Part shown: one piece after another, positions 17,567-37,299 of the stretch
How the letters are laid out: each line of letters starts with the position of its first letter
Position numbering within the stretch: position 1 is the stretch's first letter
Assembly (NCBI GenBank): GCA_011364905.1
Contig: RDNZ01000004.1
Span: forward strand, 1-64,000
DNA length: 64,000 nucleotides
Direction: 5' to 3'
DNA from: Candidatus Thorarchaeota archaeon
Lineage (GTDB): Archaea > Asgardarchaeota > Thorarchaeia > Thorarchaeales > Thorarchaeaceae
Notes under the pieces: generated by a model
Databases searched by the model: none
The model's input: the letters and a program-made list of their open reading frames with translations, nothing else
Told to the model about the DNA's origin: nothing
Made by a program: the position numbers and the translations under genes

Positions 17567-18463
17567 TTACCAGTCTAGGTCTAGGTCAACGGAATCACTA
17601 TGAGTTTCATCCTTCATTTTTTCTCCTGAAACCTTTAACGGAATCTCTATTGAGGGATCAATTGCTAATCCAATCTCCATCACTACCTTCAGGACTAGCG
17701 AAGTCTTGATGAGTTTGGCCACAAACGGAGTCACTGTACCCCAATCAAAATGAACTGCTTCATCAATCCATCTGTCCCAATCACTGTCTGCAATTGGAAT
17801 TCGTTTGTCCGTAATGAGAACCTTCGAGTCTAGTTTGTTCCCTCTGCACACAACATCTTCTCGCCTATGAATTTCAACTCGAACACCCTTAATGCGTGGG
17901 CGTTCTCTTACGCAAACTCTAACATCAAAATCCCTATTTGGCCTGATGATGTCTGTTGGAAGTTCTACCAACAGTTGTTCCTTTTCTCTCCTTATTGGTT
18001 GCAATCCTGAGTCTGGTTCAGGAATGTATTGCGGTGGTCGTGTAGCCACAATGAGATTGGTCTTTGATTTCGTGTCTATTGCACGACTTATTTCTACGAC
18101 AGCTTCAACATCATATTGGATACTACCACGAAATCCGACGTGAGTTGGCGGAATACTCCCCGGGAGATTAAACTCAAAATCGAGTCTTGTATCCCCTAAG
18201 GAAACAACACCTTCCTCGTAGATGGTCATTTCTTTACTCAGAACTTCGTGTGTTTCACTCACATGCACCTTTCCCGCTTGGTAGTGAGTATATTCCTTAC
18301 CCTGGGCCTTCAATGTTATCCTATTACAGGTGAACTCCTTGTTTGTACTGACTAATGCGTACCCGCTTACCTGCTCGCCTGGGTAGTACTGGTCTCTCTC
18401 GGTATGTATTGATATTTGTCGCATGTCTTCCTCGACCGCCTGCCAATAATCATTACTACACAA
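17567..18463 (-). CDS. Arrestin-like fold protein 1
   Basis: ERDQYYPGEQVSGYALVSTNKEFTCNRITLKAQGKEYT...LDFEFNLPGSIPPTHVGFRGSIQYDVEAVVEI matches the arrestin N/C domain pattern. Confidence 0.75.
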   Translation of the reverse strand: MCSNDYWQAVEEDMRQISIHTERDQYYPGEQVSGYALVSTNKEFTCNRITLKAQGKEYTHYQAGKVHVSETHEVLSKEMTIYEEGVVSLGDTRLDFEFNLPGSIPPTHVGFRGSIQYDVEAVVEISRAIDTKSKTNLIVATRPPQYIPEPDSGLQPIRREKEQLLVELPTDIIRPNRDFDVRVCVRERPRIKGVRVEIHRREDVVCRGNKLDSKVLITDKRIPIADSDWDRWIDEAVHFDWGTVTPFVAKLIKTSLVLKVVMEIGLAIDPSIEIPLKVSGEKMKDETHSDSVDLDLDW

Positions 18464-18489: not shown

Positions 18490-19365
18490 TCAGTCGAAAC
18501 CAAGATCATACGCAATTGAATCAAAGATGTCATCGACGTCTTCATCCGGTTTTTCACCAGAAATCCTTACGGGAATATTCACAAACGGATCAATTTCCCA
18601 TCGCATCTCTAGTACAACCTTGAGAAAATATGTTGTAGCAATGAGTTTGGACTTAAATGGTACTCGACGCCACCCCTCTCCAACTATTTCTTCTTGCCAC
18701 TCATGAAAGTCGTCAGGCGAAAACGGAACGAATTTGCGCTTTAGTGTGACATCATGGGTGTCTTTACTGTTCCTACACTTGACGAACTCTTTTCTTCTTA
18801 CTTCGAAACGCACACCATTAATGCGTGAGTGTTCCTCAACCATGAAGCGAACTAGAATTCCCTTGTTTATTCTAAGTATATCGCTTTGGAGTTCTATATG
18901 GAGCTTATCCTTATCTTTGTTTATAGGGCTATATCCATCAACTTCTGGAATGTACTCGGGTTGAATTGGCAGAACTCTAAATCGTCGTGTCATCTTTGGA
19001 TCGAGGGTCCAGTCCATTTCAACAACTGCTTCAACGCTGTACTCAATCCAACCACAATAACCGGAATAGGTTGGTGGGAGACCCTCCTCCAGTCTGAATT
19101 TGAATGGAAACTCGCTTCTACCGCTGGAAACCTCTTGGGCCTCACATAGCACTATTCTTCCTTTAACAAGGACAACCTCATCCGTGATGCTATATTCTCC
19201 GCCTCCCAGCTCAGTCCTTTCCTTTCCTTTAATCTTCAGTACTACTCTATTACATTCGAATGCTTTGTCGGTATTAATAACGACAACTCCACTTATGATA
19301 CCTCCCGGACGAGCTTCTCGTTCAGAGAACTTGATGTCTACAAACCTCATCTGTGTTTCAGCCAC
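18490..19365 (-). CDS. Arrestin-like fold protein 2 (paralogue of the neighbour)
   Basis: SEREARPGGIISGVVVINTDKAFECNRVVLKIKGKERTELG...SEFPFKFRLEEGLPPTYSGYCGWIEYSVEAVVEM. Confidence 0.75.
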   Translation of the reverse strand: MAETQMRFVDIKFSEREARPGGIISGVVVINTDKAFECNRVVLKIKGKERTELGGGEYSITDEVVLVKGRIVLCEAQEVSSGRSEFPFKFRLEEGLPPTYSGYCGWIEYSVEAVVEMDWTLDPKMTRRFRVLPIQPEYIPEVDGYSPINKDKDKLHIELQSDILRINKGILVRFMVEEHSRINGVRFEVRRKEFVKCRNSKDTHDVTLKRKFVPFSPDDFHEWQEEIVGEGWRRVPFKSKLIATTYFLKVVLEMRWEIDPFVNIPVRISGEKPDEDVDDIFDSIAYDLGFD

Positions 19366-20981: not shown

Positions 20982-22964
20982 ATGAGCGAATTCAAACTTG
21001 AGGCCCCATTCAATCCCACGGGTGATCAACCTCAAGCGATAGAAAAGCTGTTGGAGGGACTTGAAAGTGGACTTCGGCATCAGACTCTTCTAGGTGTCAC
21101 GGGATCTGGCAAAACTTTCACTATGGCTAATGTGATTGAAGCATACAACAAGCCCACGCTGGTAATCTCACATAACAAGACGCTTGCTGCTCAGCTTGCC
21201 TCAGAGTACAAGCAGTTCTTTCCGGATGCTGGTGTGGAGTACTTCGTTAGCTATTATGATTACTATCAACCTGAGGCCTATGTTCCCAGTAAGGACATGT
21301 ACATTGAGAAGGAAACAGACATCAACCAAGAGATTGAACGACTTCGCCATTCTGCAACTCACTCCCTGAGGTCACGGAAGGATGTCATAGTGGTTGCATC
21401 TGTATCTTGCATATATGGCGTTGGGGACCCGAGCGAGTACGATTATTTCAGGATGTACATTGAACGGGGGGGTCAGGTTGATCGTCGGGAGATCCTCGAA
21501 CGACTTGTGGCAATGCAGTACGAGCGAAATGACATGGAGATCAAGCCTGGAGTTTTTCGTGTGCGTGGAGATGTCATTGATGTTTATCCTGCCGCTTCGG
21601 AGAACAGCTATCGAATTGAGCTGGATGGCGACAAGGTTCACAGGCTCACAATGCTTGAGGGACTAACCGCGAGAAAGATGTATGAACCCGATTGGATTGA
21701 GCTGTTCCCGGCTAAACACCATATCGCTCGACATGAAACGGTCATTGACGCTCTTGATCCAATCGAGCAAGAGATGGAAGAACGTGTTGAATGGTTCAGA
21801 AAGCAGGGCAAACTCGTGGAGGCTGAACGACTCAAGAGACGCACGCTCTATGACCTCGAAATGCTTAGAGAGATTGGTATGTGCTCAGGTATTGAGAACT
21901 ACTCTCGCTTCATAGATGGTAGAGCGGTGGGTGAAAAACCCTATACTCTACTTGACTACTTCCCAGAAGACTTTCTCATGATACTCGATGAGAGTCACAT
22001 GACTATACCCCAGATCCGCGGGATGTACAATGGTGACCTATCGAGAAAGCAGAATCTCGTTGACTATGGATTTAGACTGCCATCAGCCATTGACAACAGA
22101 CCACTCAAGTTCCCTGAGTTCGAGAAGTACATGAAGCATGTTATCTATACTAGTGCCACACCTGGTCCTTACGAGCAAAAAGTCAGTCAACAAATCGTAG
22201 AGCAGCTGTTGAGACCGACAGGACTTCTGGACCCAGCTGTGACTGTTCGACCTGTGGTAGGGCAAGTAGACCACCTGCTCGGAGAGATTAACAAGACCGT
22301 AGAGAATGGCGACCGTGTCCTTGTGACCACACTTACAAAGAAGACATCGGAAATGTTGAGTGAGTATCTCGTCGAGGCTGGCGTGAAAGCCCGATACCTT
22401 CACTCTGACATAGGGACTGTCGAGCGGATTGAAATTGTACGTCAGCTCCGACAGGGGAAGTACGATGTTCTTGTGGGAATCAACCTTCTGCGTGAAGGGC
22501 TGGACCTTCCCGAAGTCGGACTGGTAGCCATCCTAGATGCGGACAAGGAAGGATTCCTGAGGACTGACTGGGCACTCATACAGACTATGGGCCGGGCTGC
22601 TCGGAACGCCAACGGCCGAGTCATTCTCTATGGCGACCACACTTCTGCAGCGATGCAGACCGCCATCGACGAGACCAATCGCAGACGTGCGTACCAGATG
22701 AAATACAATGAGGAGCATGGGATTGAACCTGCCTCAATCATCAAGTCAATCAGAGATATCGCTGAAGGCATCAAGGCCTCAGAGAAAGAGACCCAGACTA
22801 AGTTAGAGGACTTCGATCCGTTTGAGGTGGATGAGCTGACGGACTACATCGTAGATCTTGAAGAACAGATGAAAGAAGCGGCAAGAGAGCTTGAGTTCGA
22901 AAAGGCTGCTCGTCTCAGGGACCAGATAGCGTCCCTTCGCAAGAGGATAGAGGGAATAGAATAG
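20982..22964 (+). CDS. uvrB: Excinuclease ABC subunit B
   Basis: LLGVTGSGKTFTMANVI, YFVSYYDYYQPEAYVP, DESHMTIPQIRGMYNGD, RVLVTTLTKKTSEMLSEYL, C-terminal UVR motif. Confidence 0.99.
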   Translation: MSEFKLEAPFNPTGDQPQAIEKLLEGLESGLRHQTLLGVTGSGKTFTMANVIEAYNKPTLVISHNKTLAAQLASEYKQFFPDAGVEYFVSYYDYYQPEAYVPSKDMYIEKETDINQEIERLRHSATHSLRSRKDVIVVASVSCIYGVGDPSEYDYFRMYIERGGQVDRREILERLVAMQYERNDMEIKPGVFRVRGDVIDVYPAASENSYRIELDGDKVHRLTMLEGLTARKMYEPDWIELFPAKHHIARHETVIDALDPIEQEMEERVEWFRKQGKLVEAERLKRRTLYDLEMLREIGMCSGIENYSRFIDGRAVGEKPYTLLDYFPEDFLMILDESHMTIPQIRGMYNGDLSRKQNLVDYGFRLPSAIDNRPLKFPEFEKYMKHVIYTSATPGPYEQKVSQQIVEQLLRPTGLLDPAVTVRPVVGQVDHLLGEINKTVENGDRVLVTTLTKKTSEMLSEYLVEAGVKARYLHSDIGTVERIEIVRQLRQGKYDVLVGINLLREGLDLPEVGLVAILDADKEGFLRTDWALIQTMGRAARNANGRVILYGDHTSAAMQTAIDETNRRRAYQMKYNEEHGIEPASIIKSIRDIAEGIKASEKETQTKLEDFDPFEVDELTDYIVDLEEQMKEAARELEFEKAARLRDQIASLRKRIEGIE

Positions 22965-25855
22965 TGAAGAGCGCGACCAACGACAGAAGCAAGGGCACGC
23001 CTGATGTCGCACTAGATGGCCCTCAGTCCATAGTAGTCGTTGGTGCTGCAGAACACAATCTTCGTCATATTGACTGTGAGATTCCAAAGAACAGTTTCAC
23101 GGTGGTCACAGGAGTCAGCGGCTCCGGGAAGAGCTCCTTGGTCTTTGATACCATCTTCGCAGAGGGGCAAAGGAGGTTCATTGAGTCACTCTCTGCGTAT
23201 GCTCGGCAGTTCCTCGGGATGCTCGAGAAACCAAAGGTCGACTTCATGTCGGGTCTCTCGCCGTCTATCTCCATTGACCAAAAGAGCGTGGGTCGGAACC
23301 CGAGAAGCACAGTCGGGACCATCACCGAGATCTATGACTATCTACGTCTGCTCTATGCCCGTGTGGGAGTACCTCATTGTCCCAACTGCGGAAAGGTGAT
23401 TGAGCCACAGACATCGCAGCAAATGGTCGATCGTGTTCTCATGCTTGAAGAGGGCACGCACATTATGATTCTAGCACCCATAGTACGGGGGCGAAAAGGG
23501 GAGTATCGGAGAGAGTTCCGGGATCTTTTGAAGAAGGGATTCATCCGCGCGAAGGTCGATGGTGAGCTGATGGAGCTCGAGGACGGGATGTCCCTGGACC
23601 GATATTTCGAACATACCATCGAGGTCGTTGTTGACAGGCTCCGAGTCAAACCATCTGAGCGAGCGCGTATCTCCGAGGCAATCGAGACCTCTCTCAACAT
23701 GGCTGACGGAGTCGTTACAATAGAGAAGGGAGATGGCAATCTGACACTCTCCGAGCAGTTTGCCTGCGTAGACTGCGGTATCAGTCTTCCAGAGATGGAG
23801 CCACGTATCTTCTCCTGGAACACACCTCAAGGCGCATGTACGAATTGCACGGGTCTCGGAGTTGTTCGGGAGTTCGACCCAGACCTCTTCATCAAAGACC
23901 CTAACCTGTCCCTCAATCAGGGTGCCATGATCCCTGACAACTGGGTGCTGCGACGAGACCTATTCAAAAAAGTTGCTGACAAGTACGGGTTCACCCTGGA
24001 TATGCCTTGGAAGGACTTCACTGACAAGCAGAAAGAAATTGTCTTCTATGGTACAAAAGAGAAGTATGACGTGACCTGGGAGAGTGAGAATGAGGACTAC
24101 GAGGTAAAGTTTGCAGGTCACTATAAAAGAGCCTTTGAAGGATTTTTCACTCGGGCGCAACGGACTTACAAGAAGACTAAGTCGGAGTGGCGGAGAAGAG
24201 AGATGGAACGGCTGATGTCAATCCAACCTTGCCCAGTCTGCAAGGGTGACCGTCTTAAGCCCGAATCTCAGGCTATTACCATTGGTGGTCGGTCCATCTC
24301 AAGCCTTGGTAGCCTCTCAATCAAGGACCTCCGTGAGTTTATCGATAATTTGAAGATCAAGAAAGAACTCAGACCAGTGGCTGATCCCATCATCAAGGAG
24401 ATCACCGGAAGGATTGGATTCCTTCAGGACGTCGGGCTCGAATACCTGACTCTTGAGCGATCTGCTCCGTCTCTAGCTGGTGGAGAAAGTCAGAGGATTC
24501 GGCTAGCGAGTCAAATCGGCTCAAACCTCGTTGGAGTTACCTATGTGTGCGATGAGCCCAGTATTGGGCTCCATGCTCGAGACAATGAGCGACTCCTCAA
24601 ATCGTTGAAGAACCTCAGAGACCTTGGGAACACTGTGCTTGTGGTCGAGCATGATGAAGAGACAATCCGAAGTGCAGACTATGTGATTGACTTGGGCCCC
24701 GGCGCTGGAGCTGAGGGTGGTGAAGTTGTCATTGCTGGTACACTGGACAAGATTCTCAAGTCAAAAGACTCGCTGACCGCTAAGTACCTCCGTGGCGAGG
24801 AAAAGATTCCTGTGCCGAATGAGCGAAGAAAACCGAACGGGCGATTTATTGAGGTCCGCGGTTGTCGTCATAATAACCTGAAGAACATAAACGTGAGGAT
24901 CCCACTTGGGCTATTTATAGCAATCACCGGCGTGAGTGGGTCCGGGAAGTCATCGTTGGTTGTGGAAACCCTACAACGTGAATTGGCACGAAGATTCCAC
25001 CACGCAGAGGCTAAGCCTGGTGCTCACGATGAGATAGTTGGCATCGACCAACTCGATAAAGTCATAGTCATCGATCAGAGTCCCATTGGACGAACACCTC
25101 GTTCTAATCCTGCCACGTATGTTGGACTCTGGAGTCCATTACGAGAGATGTTTTCGAACCTGCCGGAGTCAAGGATTCGGGGCTACAAGCCGGGTCGGTT
25201 CAGTTTCAATGTTAAGGGTGGTCGGTGCGAGACCTGCAAGGGGGCAGGTGTAGAAGTCATCGAGATGCAGTTCCTTCCACCTGTTGAGGTCACTTGTAGT
25301 GAGTGCAAGGGTCGAAGGTACAATAGGGAAACCCTTCAGGTGAGATACAAGGGCAAGAACATTGCTGATATCCTCGATATGAGGATTGATGAAGCGTACC
25401 CATTCTTTGAAGGAATACCATCGATACATCGACGACTTGCGACTCTTACTGCAGTTGGTATGGGTTACGTGAAGCTTGGACAACCCGCTACGACTCTCAG
25501 TGGGGGTGAAGCGCAAAGAATCAAGCTGAGCAAGTTCCTCTCGAGGCCTGCTACTGGACAGACTTTGATTTTATTAGATGAGCCCACAACAGGGCTTCAT
25601 TTCGCGGACATCAAGAAGCTACTTGAGGTCTTACATCGATTGGTTGACCTCGGAAACACAGTCTTAGTAATTGAGCATCAGCTGGATGTGGTGAAGACTG
25701 CAGATTGGGTGATTGATCTTGGTCCCGAGGGAGGCGATGATGGTGGATATATTGTTGCTGAAGGGACACCTGAGGACATAGTTGCTTGTCCGACCTCATA
25801 TACTGGGAAATACCTGGAGGAATTTCTGAGCGCACCTGGAGGGAAGAAGAAGTGA
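22964..25855 (+). CDS. uvrA: Excinuclease ABC subunit A (copy 1)
   Basis: [22 protein letters not shown], zinc-binding CxxC motifs, [52 protein letters not shown] start overlapping the uvrB stop by one base. Confidence 0.98.
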   Translation: MKSATNDRSKGTPDVALDGPQSIVVVGAAEHNLRHIDCEIPKNSFTVVTGVSGSGKSSLVFDTIFAEGQRRFIESLSAYARQFLGMLEKPKVDFMSGLSPSISIDQKSVGRNPRSTVGTITEIYDYLRLLYARVGVPHCPNCGKVIEPQTSQQMVDRVLMLEEGTHIMILAPIVRGRKGEYRREFRDLLKKGFIRAKVDGELMELEDGMSLDRYFEHTIEVVVDRLRVKPSERARISEAIETSLNMADGVVTIEKGDGNLTLSEQFACVDCGISLPEMEPRIFSWNTPQGACTNCTGLGVVREFDPDLFIKDPNLSLNQGAMIPDNWVLRRDLFKKVADKYGFTLDMPWKDFTDKQKEIVFYGTKEKYDVTWESENEDYEVKFAGHYKRAFEGFFTRAQRTYKKTKSEWRRREMERLMSIQPCPVCKGDRLKPESQAITIGGRSISSLGSLSIKDLREFIDNLKIKKELRPVADPIIKEITGRIGFLQDVGLEYLTLERSAPSLAGGESQRIRLASQIGSNLVGVTYVCDEPSIGLHARDNERLLKSLKNLRDLGNTVLVVEHDEETIRSADYVIDLGPGAGAEGGEVVIAGTLDKILKSKDSLTAKYLRGEEKIPVPNERRKPNGRFIEVRGCRHNNLKNINVRIPLGLFIAITGVSGSGKSSLVVETLQRELARRFHHAEAKPGAHDEIVGIDQLDKVIVIDQSPIGRTPRSNPATYVGLWSPLREMFSNLPESRIRGYKPGRFSFNVKGGRCETCKGAGVEVIEMQFLPPVEVTCSECKGRRYNRETLQVRYKGKNIADILDMRIDEAYPFFEGIPSIHRRLATLTAVGMGYVKLGQPATTLSGGEAQRIKLSKFLSRPATGQTLILLDEPTTGLHFADIKKLLEVLHRLVDLGNTVLVIEHQLDVVKTADWVIDLGPEGGDDGGYIVAEGTPEDIVACPTSYTGKYLEEFLSAPGGKKK

Positions 25856-28710
25856 CAGGCTACATCAAGGTGCGCAAGGCGGAGGAACACAATCTCAAGA
25901 AGATAGATGTCGATATCCCCCGAGACCGACTTGTAGTTGTCACAGGTCCGAGTGGTTCTGGAAAGAGTACGCTCGTGTTTGATACGATCTTTGCTGAGGG
26001 ACAGCGACGGTATGTTGAATCACTGTCATCGTACGCTCGTAGATTTCTTGGGAGACTGGATAAACCTAAGGTTGACAAGATCACAGGTCTCCCACCTGCC
26101 ATCTCGATTGAACAGAAGGGACGGACAAAGAATCCCCGGAGCACAGTTGCAACGAGCACAGAGATACAGGACTATCTCCGTCTTCTCTACGCAAACATCG
26201 GGATTCCGCACTGTGTTCAGTGTGGTCGACCCATGGAGCAGCTCACAGCAGAGTCTGCAGCCCGTCTTCTTCTTGATGAGAACGGCGGTCAGAAGATTCA
26301 CATCCTCGCCCCAATCGTAAGAGGTGAAACAGGCAATCAGCAGGAGAAGCTTGACAGCTTATTCAAGAATGGTTTTGCCCGGGTCCGGGCTGACGGCAAG
26401 ATACTGGAAATAGAAGATGTCCAGCTGGATGCTCGAATGAAACATGATATCGAAGTCGTTGTTGACCGTTTGGACTTGAGTCAGAAGATTCGCGAGCGAC
26501 TGATTGGGTCCCTGGAAACTGCCCTTGAAACGGGAGAAGGTGCTGCTATCGTTGCACGTGACGATCAACCTGATCTGGTCTTTGCAGAGCAACTAATGTG
26601 TCCAAAGTGTGGCATCCAATATGAAAAACTAGGACCCAAGGCGTTCTCCTACAACAGACCTGATGGTGCATGTCCAACATGCAATGGTCTTGGAGTCACA
26701 ATGTCTATTGACCCTAATCTTATAGTTCCTGACAAGAACATGACTATACGCGACATCAGTCGCAGAGTGAATGGGAGAGAGCGAGCCTGGTTCCTGAAGC
26801 GGCTGCAGACTCTCGGAGAAATGAAAGGGTTCACCCTTGATACGAAATACAAGGATCTCACAAAAACGCAAGTTGATGCTTTTATGTGGGGAAAGCCCAA
26901 TATCATGCTCTCCTACGTTATGGAGGGCGAAGAGTCCTACTGGGAGATCGAACGGAAATGGATTGGTCTGGTTCCATGGCTTGAGAGGCTCTTTGAGAAC
27001 AGCAAGAGTAGTGACAAGCAGTGGTACCAGTGGTGGGCTAGGAGGATTGCTAACGAGTTTTCAAGGAAGTTGACTTGTGAGTCCTGTGGAGGTCGAAAGC
27101 TCAAGCCTGAGAGTCTTGCAGTCACTGTCAGCGGGAAACCCATCGATGAGTTGACTTTGATGACCATCGAGGAAGCTGTTGAGTTCTTCGATAATATCAA
27201 GCTCTCAGAGCGAGAGCGAAAGATTGCAGAGCTCGTCTTGAAGGAGATTCGTGTTCGACTCAAGTTCCTCTGTTCAGTCGGTCTGGAGTACCTGAACCTT
27301 GACAGGTCATCTATGACTCTTTCAGGCGGTGAAAGCCAGAGAATTCGTTTAGCCACGCAGATAGGTTCTGCACTCACAGGTGTCCTCTATTGTCTAGACG
27401 AACCTTCCATAGGTCTCCACCCCCGTGACATCAACCGACTCATCGAGACCTTCTACCATCTCCGATCTCTAGGGAACACGGTCGTTGTGATTGAGCATGA
27501 CCGGGACACAATATCTGCGGCTGACCACCTCATTGACCTTGGGCCGTTAGCTGGCACACATGGTGGCGAAGTGGTTGCGGTGGGACCCCCCTCTGAAGTG
27601 CTTGCTGATCCGAAGTCGCTCACAGCACAGTATCTAGCCGGTGCAAAACAGATCCCAGTTCCTGAAAAACGAAGGAATGGCAATGGAGCAAGTATTGTGG
27701 TCCGTAACGCTAGGGCTAACAATCTGAAGGGAATCAATGTGGAGTTTCCACTGGGAAAGATGATCTGTGTGACAGGCGTTTCAGGTGCTGGAAAGAGTTC
27801 ACTCACCTATGATACGCTGTACAAGGCACTTGCCAGAACGATGAATGGTTCCAATGTCCACCCAGGACCACATGATTCCATTGGAGGTGTCGAGAACCTA
27901 GACAGACTGGTTCTCGTGGATCAGTCTCCGATAGGCCGAACGCCTCGCAGTAATCCTGCAACCTACACAAAGACCTTTGGAGAGATCAGAAACCTCCTTG
28001 CAAAGATGCCTGAGGCAAAGGCACGTGGTTTCAGCCCCGGTAGGTTCAGTTTCAATACTCGGGAGGGTCGATGCGAGAAGTGCAAGGGGAGCGGTCTCAT
28101 ACAGGTCGAGATGCACTTCATGTCTGACGTCTTCATCACTTGCGATGTTTGTAAAGGGAAGCGGTTTGATAGAGAAACCCTAGAGGTTACTTACAAGGGC
28201 AAGAATATCACAGAGATCCTCGGACTGACCATAGATGAGGCCCTTGAATTCTTCGCTGACATTCCGAAGATTGCAGACAAGCTTCAGACACTGGTTGACG
28301 TGGGTCTGGGTTATTTACAACTCGGGCAACCCGCCACTCAATTAAGTGGTGGAGAAGCGCAACGAATGAAGCTTGCATCAGAACTCTCACGGAGATCTAC
28401 AGGCAAGACACTCTACCTTCTAGATGAACCTACGACTGGTCTCTCTGCATCGGATATCCACGTCCTTCTGCGAGTCATTAACCGGCTTGTGGATGCTGGG
28501 AATACAGCAATAGTCGTCGAGCACAACCTCGAGGTGATCAAGACTGCTGACTGGGTGATAGACTTAGGGCCAGAGGGCGGAGATGCTGGTGGTAGGCTTG
28601 TGGCGCAGGGCACACCTGAGCATCTGTGCGAGGAGTGGAAGTCATACACAGGGAACTATCTCAGAAACGCTCTATATGGCCCGAACGTCCGCCACGGTCC
28701 ATTGAATTAG
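25852..28710 (+). CDS. Excinuclease ABC subunit A paralogue (copy 2)
   Basis: [88 protein letters not shown]; proposed GTG start at 25852 overlapping the copy-1 stop (GTGA). Confidence 0.97.
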
Positions 28711-29438: not shown

Positions 29439-31343
29439 CTAGTACAACTGACCGCTGTTTGATGCTCTCCGTCGCATAATCAAACCTAACACAATAAGGA
29501 GGATTACTCCAGTTGTGACTCCTCCAGAGATATATACTATCCACAAAGGAAATCCTCCTTCAGTTGTGGGAGTTGTGTTTGACGTTGATGGTTCTGTAGT
29601 AGTTGATAGTGTTCTATCTGGTGCATAATAGAAGTTTGGATTGTAGTTCAGCTCATAAGAAACTCCTTCTTCGAAGTCAGCAAACAAGAAGGGTCCTGAG
29701 GTCACAAGAGGGTCAGTGGAGTTGAATACGGGATTCCATGAACTCCATCCCTCGGCGCCAATTCCAGTCTCATCATTGAAAACATGCTTAGGAATGATCC
29801 AAGTATATGCGAATTCCTGGAAATTCCAGTATGACTCCTTTGAATACTCAAACACAACTTGAAATGGGGTCGGGCTCCAGACTCCAAACATCTCAGTGTT
29901 GGGGAAAAACAGAGTCTGATTCACATCAAGCATGTAGTTGAAGGTGAAAGCAACGTCCTCTGCGGTGAGAGATGTTCCATCGTTCCATGTGGCATTATGG
30001 ATTATATTAACTATGTACCGGATATGGCCTGCAGGAACACTTGGGTTACTATCATTAGTTTCTATGCTAAAAGAATCCGCTAAGTCTTTCACTGGATTTC
30101 TATCAGGACCATAGTCGTAGAGCGATGAATACATTTCATCTAGCATAGCCCGTGTATACTTCGAGTCAGAAACGAAAATGTTGAATGTGTCAGGTGGCTG
30201 ATCGATTGCGACAATCACAGTTCCTCCATACTGCCCATCGATTCTGTGAATATTTCGCATAGTCCATGGTCCTGTGATGTCTCCAATTGTGTCAGGGACC
30301 CAACCTGCAAACACATCGGTTTTATACCCTTGTAGGTAGACATCCGTGTAGACTACCAGCCGTGGTACATTGTATTGTAGGATTCTCTGCATTTTCGCTG
30401 CTGCTTCGAACACTTCCTCGTATGTCTTACCATTGAGAAGTTGATCACACCAGCTATCAAACGTTGCGTTACTGAACTTTCCGGGATTCTGAAATGGACC
30501 ATCTCCAAACTCACTCCCAAATTCATAGGCAAGCCATCGAATATCGGAATCGTTGTGAAGAAATCCGTAAAAGAAGATATCAAAATCACCTTGTGTGACT
30601 ACCCTATTGATAACGTCTTCATAATTTATTTCGGCCCACGTTGCATTGATATGCAAAGAATGAAGCGCATCAACTCCAACCTCGGTGACAACCCCCAAAA
30701 CCGTACAACCTGGTAAGCTCTCAATCACAATATCAAATGGTGTTCCATCTGGTGCTAACCTATATCCTGTATCAGGATCAATGCTAAAGTTCAGACTGTC
30801 AAGAATCTGGTTACCAATGTCTGACTGGTTAGTGTAGTAATGCCAGTCAAAATCCTCCTCAATACACCAATCACTAACTACTGGAACAAGAGAATCAGAT
30901 ACAATACAATATCCTTGAAATGCTTCCGATTTTACCCTTGTTTTATCATAAGCAAAGGCAAATGCTCGACGGAATCCACTGATGTTCAACGGATACCTAT
31001 CACAATTAATTGTAAGCTGGCCGTAACCATTTTCCGGTATATTATGAACAGTGATCTCCGAACCAAACTGAAGGACTGATTGCGGTAATGGGGGGATATA
31101 GTCTAAGTCCATATCAAACTCATCATCCTGAAGCGCCAATATCCGCAGGTCTGCACCGTTTATTACTTTGTAGACAACATGGTCGATGTATGGACCAATC
31201 CTTAGTGATGCGTTGCTATCCCCTTGTGCAACGACTAGTGGGGCACCTGTTACTGGCAGCATCAGAGCTACAAGAACTAGTGCTGCAGCTATCTTCTTGC
31301 TCACCCCTACTCGCCCGATAAGATGTTTAGATGAATCTCTCAT
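29439..31343 (-). CDS. Oligopeptide-type ABC transporter substrate-binding protein (SBP_bac_5), apparently circularly permuted, with C-terminal TM anchor
   Basis: Signal peptide, then the family C-terminal half (IDHVVYKVINGADLRILALQDDEFDM...FRRAFAFAYDKTRV...DIFFYGFLHNDSDIRWLAYEF), then the family N-terminal half (GGTVIVAIDQPPDTFNIF...WNDGTSLTAEDVAFTFNYML...SGPFLFADFEEGVSYELNYNPNFY), then a Thr/Ser stalk and TM. Confidence 0.85.
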   Translation of the reverse strand: MRDSSKHLIGRVGVSKKIAAALVLVALMLPVTGAPLVVAQGDSNASLRIGPYIDHVVYKVINGADLRILALQDDEFDMDLDYIPPLPQSVLQFGSEITVHNIPENGYGQLTINCDRYPLNISGFRRAFAFAYDKTRVKSEAFQGYCIVSDSLVPVVSDWCIEEDFDWHYYTNQSDIGNQILDSLNFSIDPDTGYRLAPDGTPFDIVIESLPGCTVLGVVTEVGVDALHSLHINATWAEINYEDVINRVVTQGDFDIFFYGFLHNDSDIRWLAYEFGSEFGDGPFQNPGKFSNATFDSWCDQLLNGKTYEEVFEAAAKMQRILQYNVPRLVVYTDVYLQGYKTDVFAGWVPDTIGDITGPWTMRNIHRIDGQYGGTVIVAIDQPPDTFNIFVSDSKYTRAMLDEMYSSLYDYGPDRNPVKDLADSFSIETNDSNPSVPAGHIRYIVNIIHNATWNDGTSLTAEDVAFTFNYMLDVNQTLFFPNTEMFGVWSPTPFQVVFEYSKESYWNFQEFAYTWIIPKHVFNDETGIGAEGWSSWNPVFNSTDPLVTSGPFLFADFEEGVSYELNYNPNFYYAPDRTLSTTTEPSTSNTTPTTEGGFPLWIVYISGGVTTGVILLIVLGLIMRRRASNSGQLY

Positions 31344-32218: not shown

Positions 32219-32307
32219 TGCCTTAGTTTGTATTGTTTGTACCTTCCGAATCACTGATTTGTGTTAGTCTTATCTAGGTGGCTGAACACATACAAGGTTG
32301 ATGTTTG

Positions 32308-34119
32308 ATGGTTGATCTCAAGTCCTTGGTGCAAGACCTTCCCGAATCTCCAGGTGTCTATCTCTGGAAGAACGAGAAAGGCAAGATCCTATACATAGGG
32401 AAAGCCAAGCACCTGAGAAGACGTGTTGGTTCCTATCTTAGGAAGAGAGGGCTCTTTCGCCGGACTTGGGACATGATGCAAGAGGCAAGAGACCTAGAGA
32501 CCATCCTCACGAATACAGAGCGAGAGGCTCTTGTTTTGGAGCAGACCCTGATCAAGAAACATCAACCCAAGTATAATATTGCACTGAAGGACGATAGGCG
32601 CCATGCTTGGGTACGAGTGGATCTTTCAAGAGCAATCCCCTCCTTTGAGATTACCCGCGAAGCTCGGAAAGATGGGGCGAACTATTACGGGCCCTATGGC
32701 AGTACAAAGCGCCTAGAACGATTCCTTGACACAATTAGAAAATCAATCCCCATTGCCATGTGCAAGGATCCCACCAAAGTAAAACGAGAATGTATGGACT
32801 ATCACCTCGACAGATGTTCAGGACCTTGCAAGGAGCATATTCCATTAGAGGAGTATCGGTCGCTTGTCGAGCAAATGTGTTACTATCTCGAGGGACGACC
32901 CGAGGACCTCGTACGAATTCTCCAAAGTCAGATGAAAGAGGCATCTGCTGATATGCAATATGAGAAGGCTGCAGAACTCAGGGACCGTTTGACAGATTTG
33001 GAGATTCTAATGAGCCGTCAGAAGATTGTCGAATTCACCGGAGCTAATAGAGATGTCATTGGGATTTCACGAACAGAGCAAGCAGCGCTCATTGAGATGT
33101 TGATAATCCGAAATGGAAGAATGATTGGTCACGACAACTTCTACTTCGAGGTGGATTTGGACACAACAGATGTGGAGGTCTTAACAGCCTTCATAGAGCA
33201 GTTTTACTTCACTATTCCTCGTCTGCCTGATGAGATTATTCTTCCCTCCGAAATTCCTGATGCTGAACAACTTGGAATCTGGCTAAGTGAAGCCAATGGT
33301 CATCCTGTTAGGATTATCCTCGCAGATGATGATAGAGGTGAGGATCTCGTCGAGATGGCCAACAAGAATGCTCACAGAGCACTTCGAAAGATGTTGATTC
33401 TTGGCGAGAGCGACGATGAGATTGTACATGATGGCGTGAAGGAACTGAAGGAAGCCCTTGGGCTGACTCAAGCTCCTATGCGGATAGAAGGTTTCGATAT
33501 TGCAAATATCCAGGGTACTGACCCAACTGGCTCTTGTGTGGTATTCAAAAACGGAGAGCCATATAACAAACGATATCGAATGTTTAAGGTTCGTGGGAAA
33601 GAAACTCCTGACGACTATGCAATGATGCGCGAGGTTGTCTACCGGCGATACTTTGGAGTACTCGAGCGAAAAGATGTTCTCCCAGACTTGATACTTGTCG
33701 ACGGAGGAAAGGGACAGCTCAAAATGGCACTTGAGGCACTTGAAGAGCTTGGGTTGGATTATGTACCAGTTGCGGCCCTTGCTAAAAAGGAGGAAAAATT
33801 GTACACTCGAGATAATCCCGATGGAATCAACCTTGACATCCATTCTGAGGGACTTCACTTGGTGCAAAGAATTCGTGATGAGGCGCACAGGTTTGCTCAA
33901 AGGTATCATCACAAACTCAGAGAAAAGCGATTTACTGGGTCCATCCTTGAGGACGCGCCTGGAATTGGTCCAAAGAGGAGGTCAGCTCTTTTACAGGAGT
34001 TTGGGAGTTTTGACAAAGTCAAAGATGCTACGGTGGAGCAACTGGCTCAAGTAGATGGAATGTCAGAGAAAACAGCTCGAACCCTCAGAGAGTGGCTGGA
34101 TAGTGAAGACTTGGAATAG
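32308..34119 (+). CDS. uvrC: Excinuclease ABC subunit C
   Basis: LPESPGVYLWKNEKGKILYIGKAKHLRRRVGSYL GIY-YIG domain, UVR motif, ILVDGGKGQLKMALEAL, C-terminal HhH DAPGIGPKRRSALLQEFGSFDKV. Confidence 0.98.
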   Translation: MVDLKSLVQDLPESPGVYLWKNEKGKILYIGKAKHLRRRVGSYLRKRGLFRRTWDMMQEARDLETILTNTEREALVLEQTLIKKHQPKYNIALKDDRRHAWVRVDLSRAIPSFEITREARKDGANYYGPYGSTKRLERFLDTIRKSIPIAMCKDPTKVKRECMDYHLDRCSGPCKEHIPLEEYRSLVEQMCYYLEGRPEDLVRILQSQMKEASADMQYEKAAELRDRLTDLEILMSRQKIVEFTGANRDVIGISRTEQAALIEMLIIRNGRMIGHDNFYFEVDLDTTDVEVLTAFIEQFYFTIPRLPDEIILPSEIPDAEQLGIWLSEANGHPVRIILADDDRGEDLVEMANKNAHRALRKMLILGESDDEIVHDGVKELKEALGLTQAPMRIEGFDIANIQGTDPTGSCVVFKNGEPYNKRYRMFKVRGKETPDDYAMMREVVYRRYFGVLERKDVLPDLILVDGGKGQLKMALEALEELGLDYVPVAALAKKEEKLYTRDNPDGINLDIHSEGLHLVQRIRDEAHRFAQRYHHKLREKRFTGSILEDAPGIGPKRRSALLQEFGSFDKVKDATVEQLAQVDGMSEKTARTLREWLDSEDLE

Positions 34120-35646: not shown

Positions 35647-37299
35647 TTGTTGCGTCGCTATGCAGTTCTTATACTATTGACAGTGCTTTTAATGCCAAAC
35701 TTCTCATTTGCTTATTCCGGTGAACCGTCCAAGCAGTATGAACCTGCTCAGTTCACTTTGCAGACTTTTAACCGGAATATGAATGTCACGACTTTTGTTG
35801 GGCCTGATTATGGAAACGAAACTATAACCCGATTCTTGAAAGGAGCAAAAGAGAGTATCTATGTCGAAATATACCAATTCACCAGCCCTGGCTTCTTGAA
35901 TTTGATTGAAGAACTCCACAACGATAACCCATCACTAGACATCAGGGTCATGATCAGCGAACATGTCGTTAGTGAGGGTCAATACAATACATACACAATG
36001 TGGTATCTCACACAACTTGGCATTCCAGTACGCTGGACCTCAGACACATTCACTTTCTCTCATCAGAAATTTGTGATTATAGATAATATCACAACAATTG
36101 TCCAGTCTGGTAACTGGGCCAAGTTGAGTTTTCCACTAAATGATTGGCAATCTGGTTCTTCCGGGGGTTTCACTCAGAAGAATTACATTGGAAACCGAGA
36201 GTTCAACATTGCAATGACTGATGAAGTTGTAACGCAATATTATCGTGATGTGTTTGATCATGACTGGAGTATCGGATCTGATTACAATGAAGGGATAGAT
36301 GGGACAGGTACTCCGTTAGTTTGGGGTACACTTGATCAATCTTACTATCCTCGGGTTTTCGATTTTGCTGGTGAGTTTTCCGGTCCTATGAATGTAACTC
36401 CGGTATTTAGTCCTGATACTAGTCTTGAAGCGATGAAGTGGGTGATAAACAGTGCACAAGCCACTTTGGATATACAGGTACCTTACGTAAGCAACTCTTC
36501 ATCTGTAGTGAATGATCTGCTTGATACAATTGTTGCAGCAAAGCATCGAGGTGTCACTATCAGAATCATTATGGCAACGGAAATTCAGAATGATAATGAA
36601 GAAGTAGCTCTAGCTTTTGCTAAAGAAAATATCCCCGTTTTTTGGATCCGCCAACGGTTCATGTATCTCCACAATAAAGCTTTCATAGCTGATGGTAGAA
36701 TAGTTTTGATTTGCAGTATTAATTGGAGTGAGGAGAGCATTTCAGAGAATCGTGAAGCCGGTGTTGTCATAGAACATGATGGGGTTGGTGCATGGTATCA
36801 GACTGTGTTTGATTATGACTGGGGACTTGCAGAATATGATACTCCTGATTATGTGAATGTTGGCTGGTTCCCTCATATCCCCACAAGCTCTTCAGTCATC
36901 AATGTGACAGTTTATGCTCATGAATACTACAATGACATTGAGGAAGTCAAACTTGGAGTTATGATAAACGATGGAGCCTGGACAAATCATACAATCACTT
37001 CTAACGTCTATACCTCATCTGAACTTCACCCTGAGAACTTCTATTATGAAATTGATCCTCAGCCGAATGGGACAAACATTACCGTGATAGCATATGTCAC
37101 ATCGCTAGGAGTTGAATCAAAAGGACTCGAGATGGTGATTCCAGTTCGTGATTCCATTGGTTCAATTGTTACAACATCAACAACCACGACAACTCCAAAT
37201 GGTGGCGATATTGCCGCATTGATAGCTGAACTATTGCCATACATTGCAGTAGCACTGGTTGCTGTAGTTGCAGCAGCGTGCTTCAAAAAACGCAAGTAA
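35647..37299 (+). CDS. Secreted phospholipase D-like protein with C-terminal TM anchor
   Basis: Signal peptide; two HxKx4D motifs (HQKFVIID...SGNW and HNKAFIAD...SINW); TTSTTTTTPNGG stalk and C-terminal TM followed by KKRK. Confidence 0.88.
   Translation: MLRRYAVLILLTVLLMPNFSFAYSGEPSKQYEPAQFTLQTFNRNMNVTTFVGPDYGNETITRFLKGAKESIYVEIYQFTSPGFLNLIEELHNDNPSLDIRVMISEHVVSEGQYNTYTMWYLTQLGIPVRWTSDTFTFSHQKFVIIDNITTIVQSGNWAKLSFPLNDWQSGSSGGFTQKNYIGNREFNIAMTDEVVTQYYRDVFDHDWSIGSDYNEGIDGTGTPLVWGTLDQSYYPRVFDFAGEFSGPMNVTPVFSPDTSLEAMKWVINSAQATLDIQVPYVSNSSSVVNDLLDTIVAAKHRGVTIRIIMATEIQNDNEEVALAFAKENIPVFWIRQRFMYLHNKAFIADGRIVLICSINWSEESISENREAGVVIEHDGVGAWYQTVFDYDWGLAEYDTPDYVNVGWFPHIPTSSSVINVTVYAHEYYNDIEEVKLGVMINDGAWTNHTITSNVYTSSELHPENFYYEIDPQPNGTNITVIAYVTSLGVESKGLEMVIPVRDSIGSIVTTSTTTTTPNGGDIAALIAELLPYIAVALVAVVAAACFKKRK

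Follow-up and report, generated by a model that had tools for sequence, protein, structure and literature searches.

The segment order of cluster C substrate-binding proteins (SBPs) has so far been taken as fixed. The window analysed here, a 64,000-nucleotide stretch at the start of a Candidatus Thorarchaeota contig (RDNZ01000004.1), carries an open reading frame (ORF) at 29439-31343 on the minus strand (634 aa) that was originally predicted, from the sequence alone, to encode a circularly permuted, membrane-anchored family-5 SBP. The locus raises the questions of whether the order of the segments is truly changed, how such a change could have come about, and whether the product still serves an importer. 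One naturally permuted SBP was found described in the literature searched, TpMglB-2 (Tp0684) of Treponema pallidum, a cluster B sugar-binding protein for which the class 'Type Ic / Cluster Bc' was proposed and whose authors suggested that the permuted topology had evolved to suit tethering (PMC4990184). Searches of the open-access literature, with subscription journals lying mostly outside their scope, found no report of a permuted member of cluster C.

Segment order and predicted fold of the window protein

A Pfam search matched SBP_bac_5 (PF00496) twice in the ORF, in reversed order: residues 51-279 correspond to profile positions 146-364, and profile positions 6-141 are found downstream of these in the chain, at 29625-30083 on the minus strand. 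Both stretches together place the protein among the homologues of SBP_bac_5, or cluster C (whole-protein E 3.4e-32 and 112.4 bits, the curated cut-off being 32.4), and its segments do not follow the canonical N-to-C order of that cluster. SBP_bac_5 was the sole Pfam family above its own cut-off, which leaves the protein outside Type Ic, a class that entails homology to the cluster B sugar-binding proteins. The proposed circular permutation with a C-terminal anchor was supported: the Pfam coordinates are reversed, and the signal peptide, short linker, Thr/Ser stalk and C-terminal transmembrane (TM) helix were all present as first described (Table 1). Similar ends are widespread, with a hydrophobic N-terminus in 146 of 156 permuted ORFs and a hydrophobic C-terminal segment in 139 of the 156.

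Table 1. Parts of the permuted SBP in chain order, with window coordinates and the evidence for each.
Feature	Residues	Coordinates	Strand	Evidence
Signal peptide (KK + AAALVLVALMLPV h-region, ...VVAQ)	1-41	31221..31343	-	sequence; AF2 pLDDT <50 at residues 1-43
Canonical C-terminal SBP part (PF00496 position 146 to canonical C-terminus)	46-365	30249..31208	-	PF00496 146-364; AF2 pLDDT mostly 90-98
Linker joining the canonical C-terminus and N-terminus (11 residues)	362-372	30228..30260	-	alignment count (residues between 361 and 373)
Canonical N-terminal SBP part (GGTVIVAIDQPPDTFNIF... to SYELNYNPNFYY)	373-578	29610..30227	-	PF00496 6-141 at 29625-30083
Thr/Ser-rich stalk	579-597	29553..29609	-	sequence; AF2 pLDDT <50 from residue 591
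C-terminal TM helix, then RRR	598-623	29475..29552	-	sequence

AlphaFold2 (AF2), run on a 97-member alignment, gave a single compact fold (pLDDT mostly 90-98 over residues 50-580, with about 95-98 over the greater part of them, and pTM 0.82) in which both lobes are predicted to be complete and co-folded, and on this model the two-lobed SBP fold is predicted to be rebuilt intact. A sequential Foldseek search of the model against the PDB found family-5 SBPs over about 310 aligned columns with a TMt of about 0.5, the partial alignment that a permutation predicts. When a profile of the 97 permuted members was compared with the PDB, 108 distinct sequences were matched at E <= 1e-3, and the permuted C-terminal segment mapped to the N-terminus of the PDB chain, and vice versa, in two alignments and in the coordinates of 60 of the 108. 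The PDB relatives listed are all canonical, with no permuted segment order among them. A collinear, non-permuted match of the ORF was thus ruled out by the Pfam coordinates and the PDB profile alignments and, judged on its sequence, the window protein is truly a family-5 (cluster C) SBP in circularly permuted form.

The position of the cut departs from the original prediction, which had placed it at the inter-lobe linker. The corresponding positions are residues 238-243 in E. coli OppA and about residues 234-235 in DppA. In MppA, the numbering of which runs about 4-6 below that of OppA by chain alignment, the hinge lies at 286-287 and 507-508 (PMC6022919). The cut therefore falls within the large lobe, in its domain 1a and about 50 residues ahead of the hinge, and an inter-lobe cut is unsupported. 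Past the signal peptide, the chain starts at the segment that canonically comes after the large-lobe strand 'npnYw'. It then passes lobe 2, the canonical C-terminus and an 11-residue linker, with the canonical N-terminal part, the stalk and the membrane anchor following in turn.

Gene context and a proposed role in transport

Inspection of the listed ORFs of at least 200 aa in the 64-kb window revealed no ABC importer subunits, in agreement with the earlier remark that no permease or ATPase adjoins the gene. It is an orphan, flanked by genes for a methyltransferase and a TPR-like protein, in surroundings that read as uvrB-uvrA-uvrA and uvrC. We refer to its order, C-N, with the canonical C-terminal part first and the canonical N-terminal part second, as type A. 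The source genome, a 3.08-Mb MAG of 95 contigs, has five SBP genes of the reversed pattern (in the window and on contigs C69, C52, C57 and C68) against one fully canonical gene, which sits in a full opp locus; a partial permuted copy is found on contig C95. The oppBCDF locus on C52 has its own permuted SBP, to which the window protein is 42% identical. The operon-linked permuted copies at the contig ends G000 C52:1-1734 and C95:2-1252 (L040, L043) are near-identical, and represent either a paralogue or a strain variant.

Many loci have the type A gene immediately after oppC-oppB, on its downstream side, and oppD-oppF, if present, is divergent. Upstream context could be assessed for 70 type A genes that were non-redundant and had at least 3.5 kb of upstream sequence; oppB/C was found upstream in 14 of these and was absent upstream in 56, and in 13 of the 70 loci the permuted SBP began 49-322 bp downstream of oppB/oppC. 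A same-strand SBP gene adjoined 26 of the 70, and tandem arrays were common. At L044:514-14292, in a Thorarchaeota contig, seven permuted SBP genes follow one another.

It had been suggested that the orphan gene encodes a surface receptor instead of a transport component. As a general reading of the family this is unsupported, because permuted relatives belong to oppCB/oppDF loci as their cognate SBP genes. We favour, with a probability of roughly 70%, the reading that the window protein is a permuted cluster C SBP acting as the tethered, ligand-capturing subunit that feeds an Opp-type importer. It would capture an oligomeric ligand, either an oligopeptide or an oligosaccharide, at the cell surface and pass it on to an ABC importer of the Opp type whose genes lie at another site in the genome, for example oppBCDF of C52. 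Through the re-cut the membrane tether would come to lie on a different face of the protein, and the new C-terminus may become available for stalks and, in some family members, for a subtilisin domain. For the window copy itself we infer transport rather than read it from the locus, because there are no importer genes in the 64 kb and 56 of the 70 relatives lack oppB/C upstream. The same observations, along with the long Ig/PKD-like stalks or subtilisin domains of some relatives, would also suit orphan copies, the window protein included, that are surface receptors, sensors or ligand traps no longer serving an importer. We consider this unlikely, since several SBPs can share one importer, as indicated for DppA1-A5 of P. 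aeruginosa (PMC4206461); moreover, identity between orphan and operon copies is about 40%, as in the pair compared above, and the window chain is without a signalling domain, ending in its TM helix and a short basic tail.

Origin and spread of type A

Duplication followed by trimming, the route put forward in the original prediction, is plausible as such, but the expected tandem intermediates did not appear: part-profiles detected neither N-C-N-C nor C-N-C-N among about 210 SBP ORFs. Long ORFs (968-2597 aa) were considered as candidates, and each proved to consist of one permuted SBP and other domains.

Fusion of parts from two different SBP genes, as opposed to the re-cut of one, would yield the same permuted topology, and was hinted at by BLAST, in which the best canonical matches differed between the two parts in 150 of 153 type A proteins. 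However, a chimera of two paralogues found no support in separate trees of the parts. A single clade of permuted proteins was rejected by neither part's tree (p-AU 0.48 and 0.10), and a grouping with the canonical L145/L146 was supported by one part and unrejected by the other (p-AU 0.29). As the part trees are without conflict, a fusion of two paralogues is not needed, and we regard it as improbable compared with the re-cut of a single gene.

Profiles of both parts identified type A order in 132 ORFs of the first locus set, and in 97 aligned relatives the linker from canonical C-end to N-start measured 9-19 aa, 11 and 14 being the commonest lengths. The type A profile was matched in 44 of 47 genomes of the source organism's family; type A was also present in families f9, f18 and f19 and, by Pfam and two part-profiles, in family f8 (L034). 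The related loci that carry titles are from Candidatus Thorarchaeota, apart from a few under the label Lokiarchaeota or 'archaeon', which places the source organism among the Asgard archaea. Two single-contig genomes have type A, G209 from the source organism's family and G086 from another. An artefact of assembly or reading frame that joined two neighbouring SBP genes, the caveat attached to the original prediction and one that a fragmented source MAG might invite, can be set aside with near certainty, given the 132 permuted ORFs of the first set alone, the conserved short linker, the paralogues in the same genome and the single-contig genomes, the last of which exclude assembly joins.

Beyond the Asgard phylum, no type A sequence was present among the matches listed at E <= 1e-60 in 392 genomes (spanning 185 genera, far more than the 61 sampled within the phylum), a threshold that more divergent members could escape, and plasmids gave no single-piece match. 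A tblastn match in a Shinella plasmid was only seemingly permuted, its alignment having extended upstream of the gene start.

A second permutation in the same family

A further order, C2-N-C1, was termed type B. Type B SBPs (L165, L144, L164 and L153, Nitratireductor L193 and Halobaculum L196) are permuted members of the same Pfam family as type A, and those of Asgards are likewise C-terminally anchored. In contrast to type A, however, they are cut inside domain 2, at about DppA residue 370, and they are separate from type A on trees. In a tree of reordered sequences type A was nearly one clade; type B needed five label changes, with at least three forced by well-supported branches, and these changes reflect either repeated gains or reversals. 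An AF2 model of type B, from an alignment of 10 sequences only, reached a pLDDT of 64 and a pTM of 0.62.

The type B protein L165 (590 aa) and the canonical L167 (597 aa) come from genomes of a single genus; their identity is 66% in N-C1, 53% in C2 and 59% in the TM helix. The C2 segment is at the front in L165 and ahead of the TM helix in L167, and the C-terminal anchor comes last in both. In L202, L203 and L204 a type B SBP is the first gene of the operon SBP-oppB-oppC-oppD-oppF, and a canonical relative in L205 likewise sits before oppB; in G002 and G219, the OppB encoded next to the type B gene is 66-69% identical to that adjoining the canonical relative L030. In related genomes the slot ahead of oppB is thus filled by either a canonical or a type B form, which is circumstantial evidence that function has been kept.

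By Pfam and part-profiles, type B was also detected in Nitratireductor, Neorhizobium, Halobaculum and Halomarina plasmids, where several of the genes adjoin permease genes. The alphaproteobacterial and haloarchaeal type B genes at L193:5911-7509 (Nitratireductor plasmid), L196, L199, L200 and L201 are annotated as ordinary ABC transporter substrate-binding proteins.

Ligand, anchor and added domains

In DppA, Arg383 and Asp436 hold the dipeptide termini (PMC12136057). These positions are occupied by T and N in the window protein, which thus lacks the pair of DppA-type dipeptide binding, and mostly by S/T and Y/S/N across type A. The nearest solved relatives include a nonapeptide binder (AppA) as well as oligosaccharide binders. 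Some type A relatives have Ig/PKD-like repeats between the permuted SBP and the TM segment, and others have a subtilase domain with Asp/His/Ser motifs in this position; the subtilase domain points to peptides as the probable ligand of those relatives at least. Permuted SBP, subtilase and further extracellular sequence are combined in each of the chains at L091:10052-17842, L211:1184-8113, L212:876-8435 and L114:3-5558, and the three of these four that are not interrupted by the locus end measure 2310-2597 aa.

The C-terminal membrane anchor is retained in both permuted types in Asgards. That permutation was an adaptation to tethering in this group is put forward as a hypothesis, because anchored canonical Asgard SBPs exist as well (16 of 39 have a C-terminal anchor).

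Relation to known binding proteins and significance

The window protein is homologous over both lobes to cluster C SBPs such as B. subtilis AppA, E. coli DppA/OppA, the Vibrio chitooligosaccharide-binding protein and Thermotoga TM1223, and some members of the permuted family share their opp operon context. It differs from the canonical members in its permuted segment order, its C-terminal TM anchor and the lack of conservation of DppA R383/D436. As mentioned above, TpMglB-2 is likewise a natural circular permutation of a tethered SBP, probably serving an ABC importer; unlike the window protein, it is a bacterial lipoprotein of cluster B (sugar), has a single topology, and its cut is not homologous.

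We offer only tentatively, as a view against which the odds still lean, that cluster C permutation is a recurrent switch with two cut sites, the second probably of several origins, which is exchangeable within the operon and which in Asgards has been selected for repositioning of the tether and for tethering of a subtilisin beside the capture domain, in a one-chain 'cut and catch' surface machine. The expanded Thorarchaeota family and the second cut elsewhere indicate that segment order can change, with the operon role apparently kept. The close canonical/permuted pair in one operon slot (66%/53%) amounts to a natural experiment, both on the way in which a permutation comes about and on what the position of the tether does for an importer. 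Profile searches that give two partial matches misread permuted SBPs.

Other genes of the window

Two adjoining archaeal arrestin-fold proteins (PF00339, E ~1e-14) are encoded at 17567-18463 and 18490-19365 on the minus strand. A putative bacterial-type uvrB-uvrA-uvrA2 run, with uvrC nearby, occupies 20982-28710 and 32305-34119 on the plus strand, and its two UvrA-like genes appear to overlap. At 35647-37299 (plus strand) lies the gene for a secreted PLD-like protein with two PLDc_2 stretches, a Thr stalk and a C-terminal TM segment, an anchoring style that is the same as that of the window SBP.
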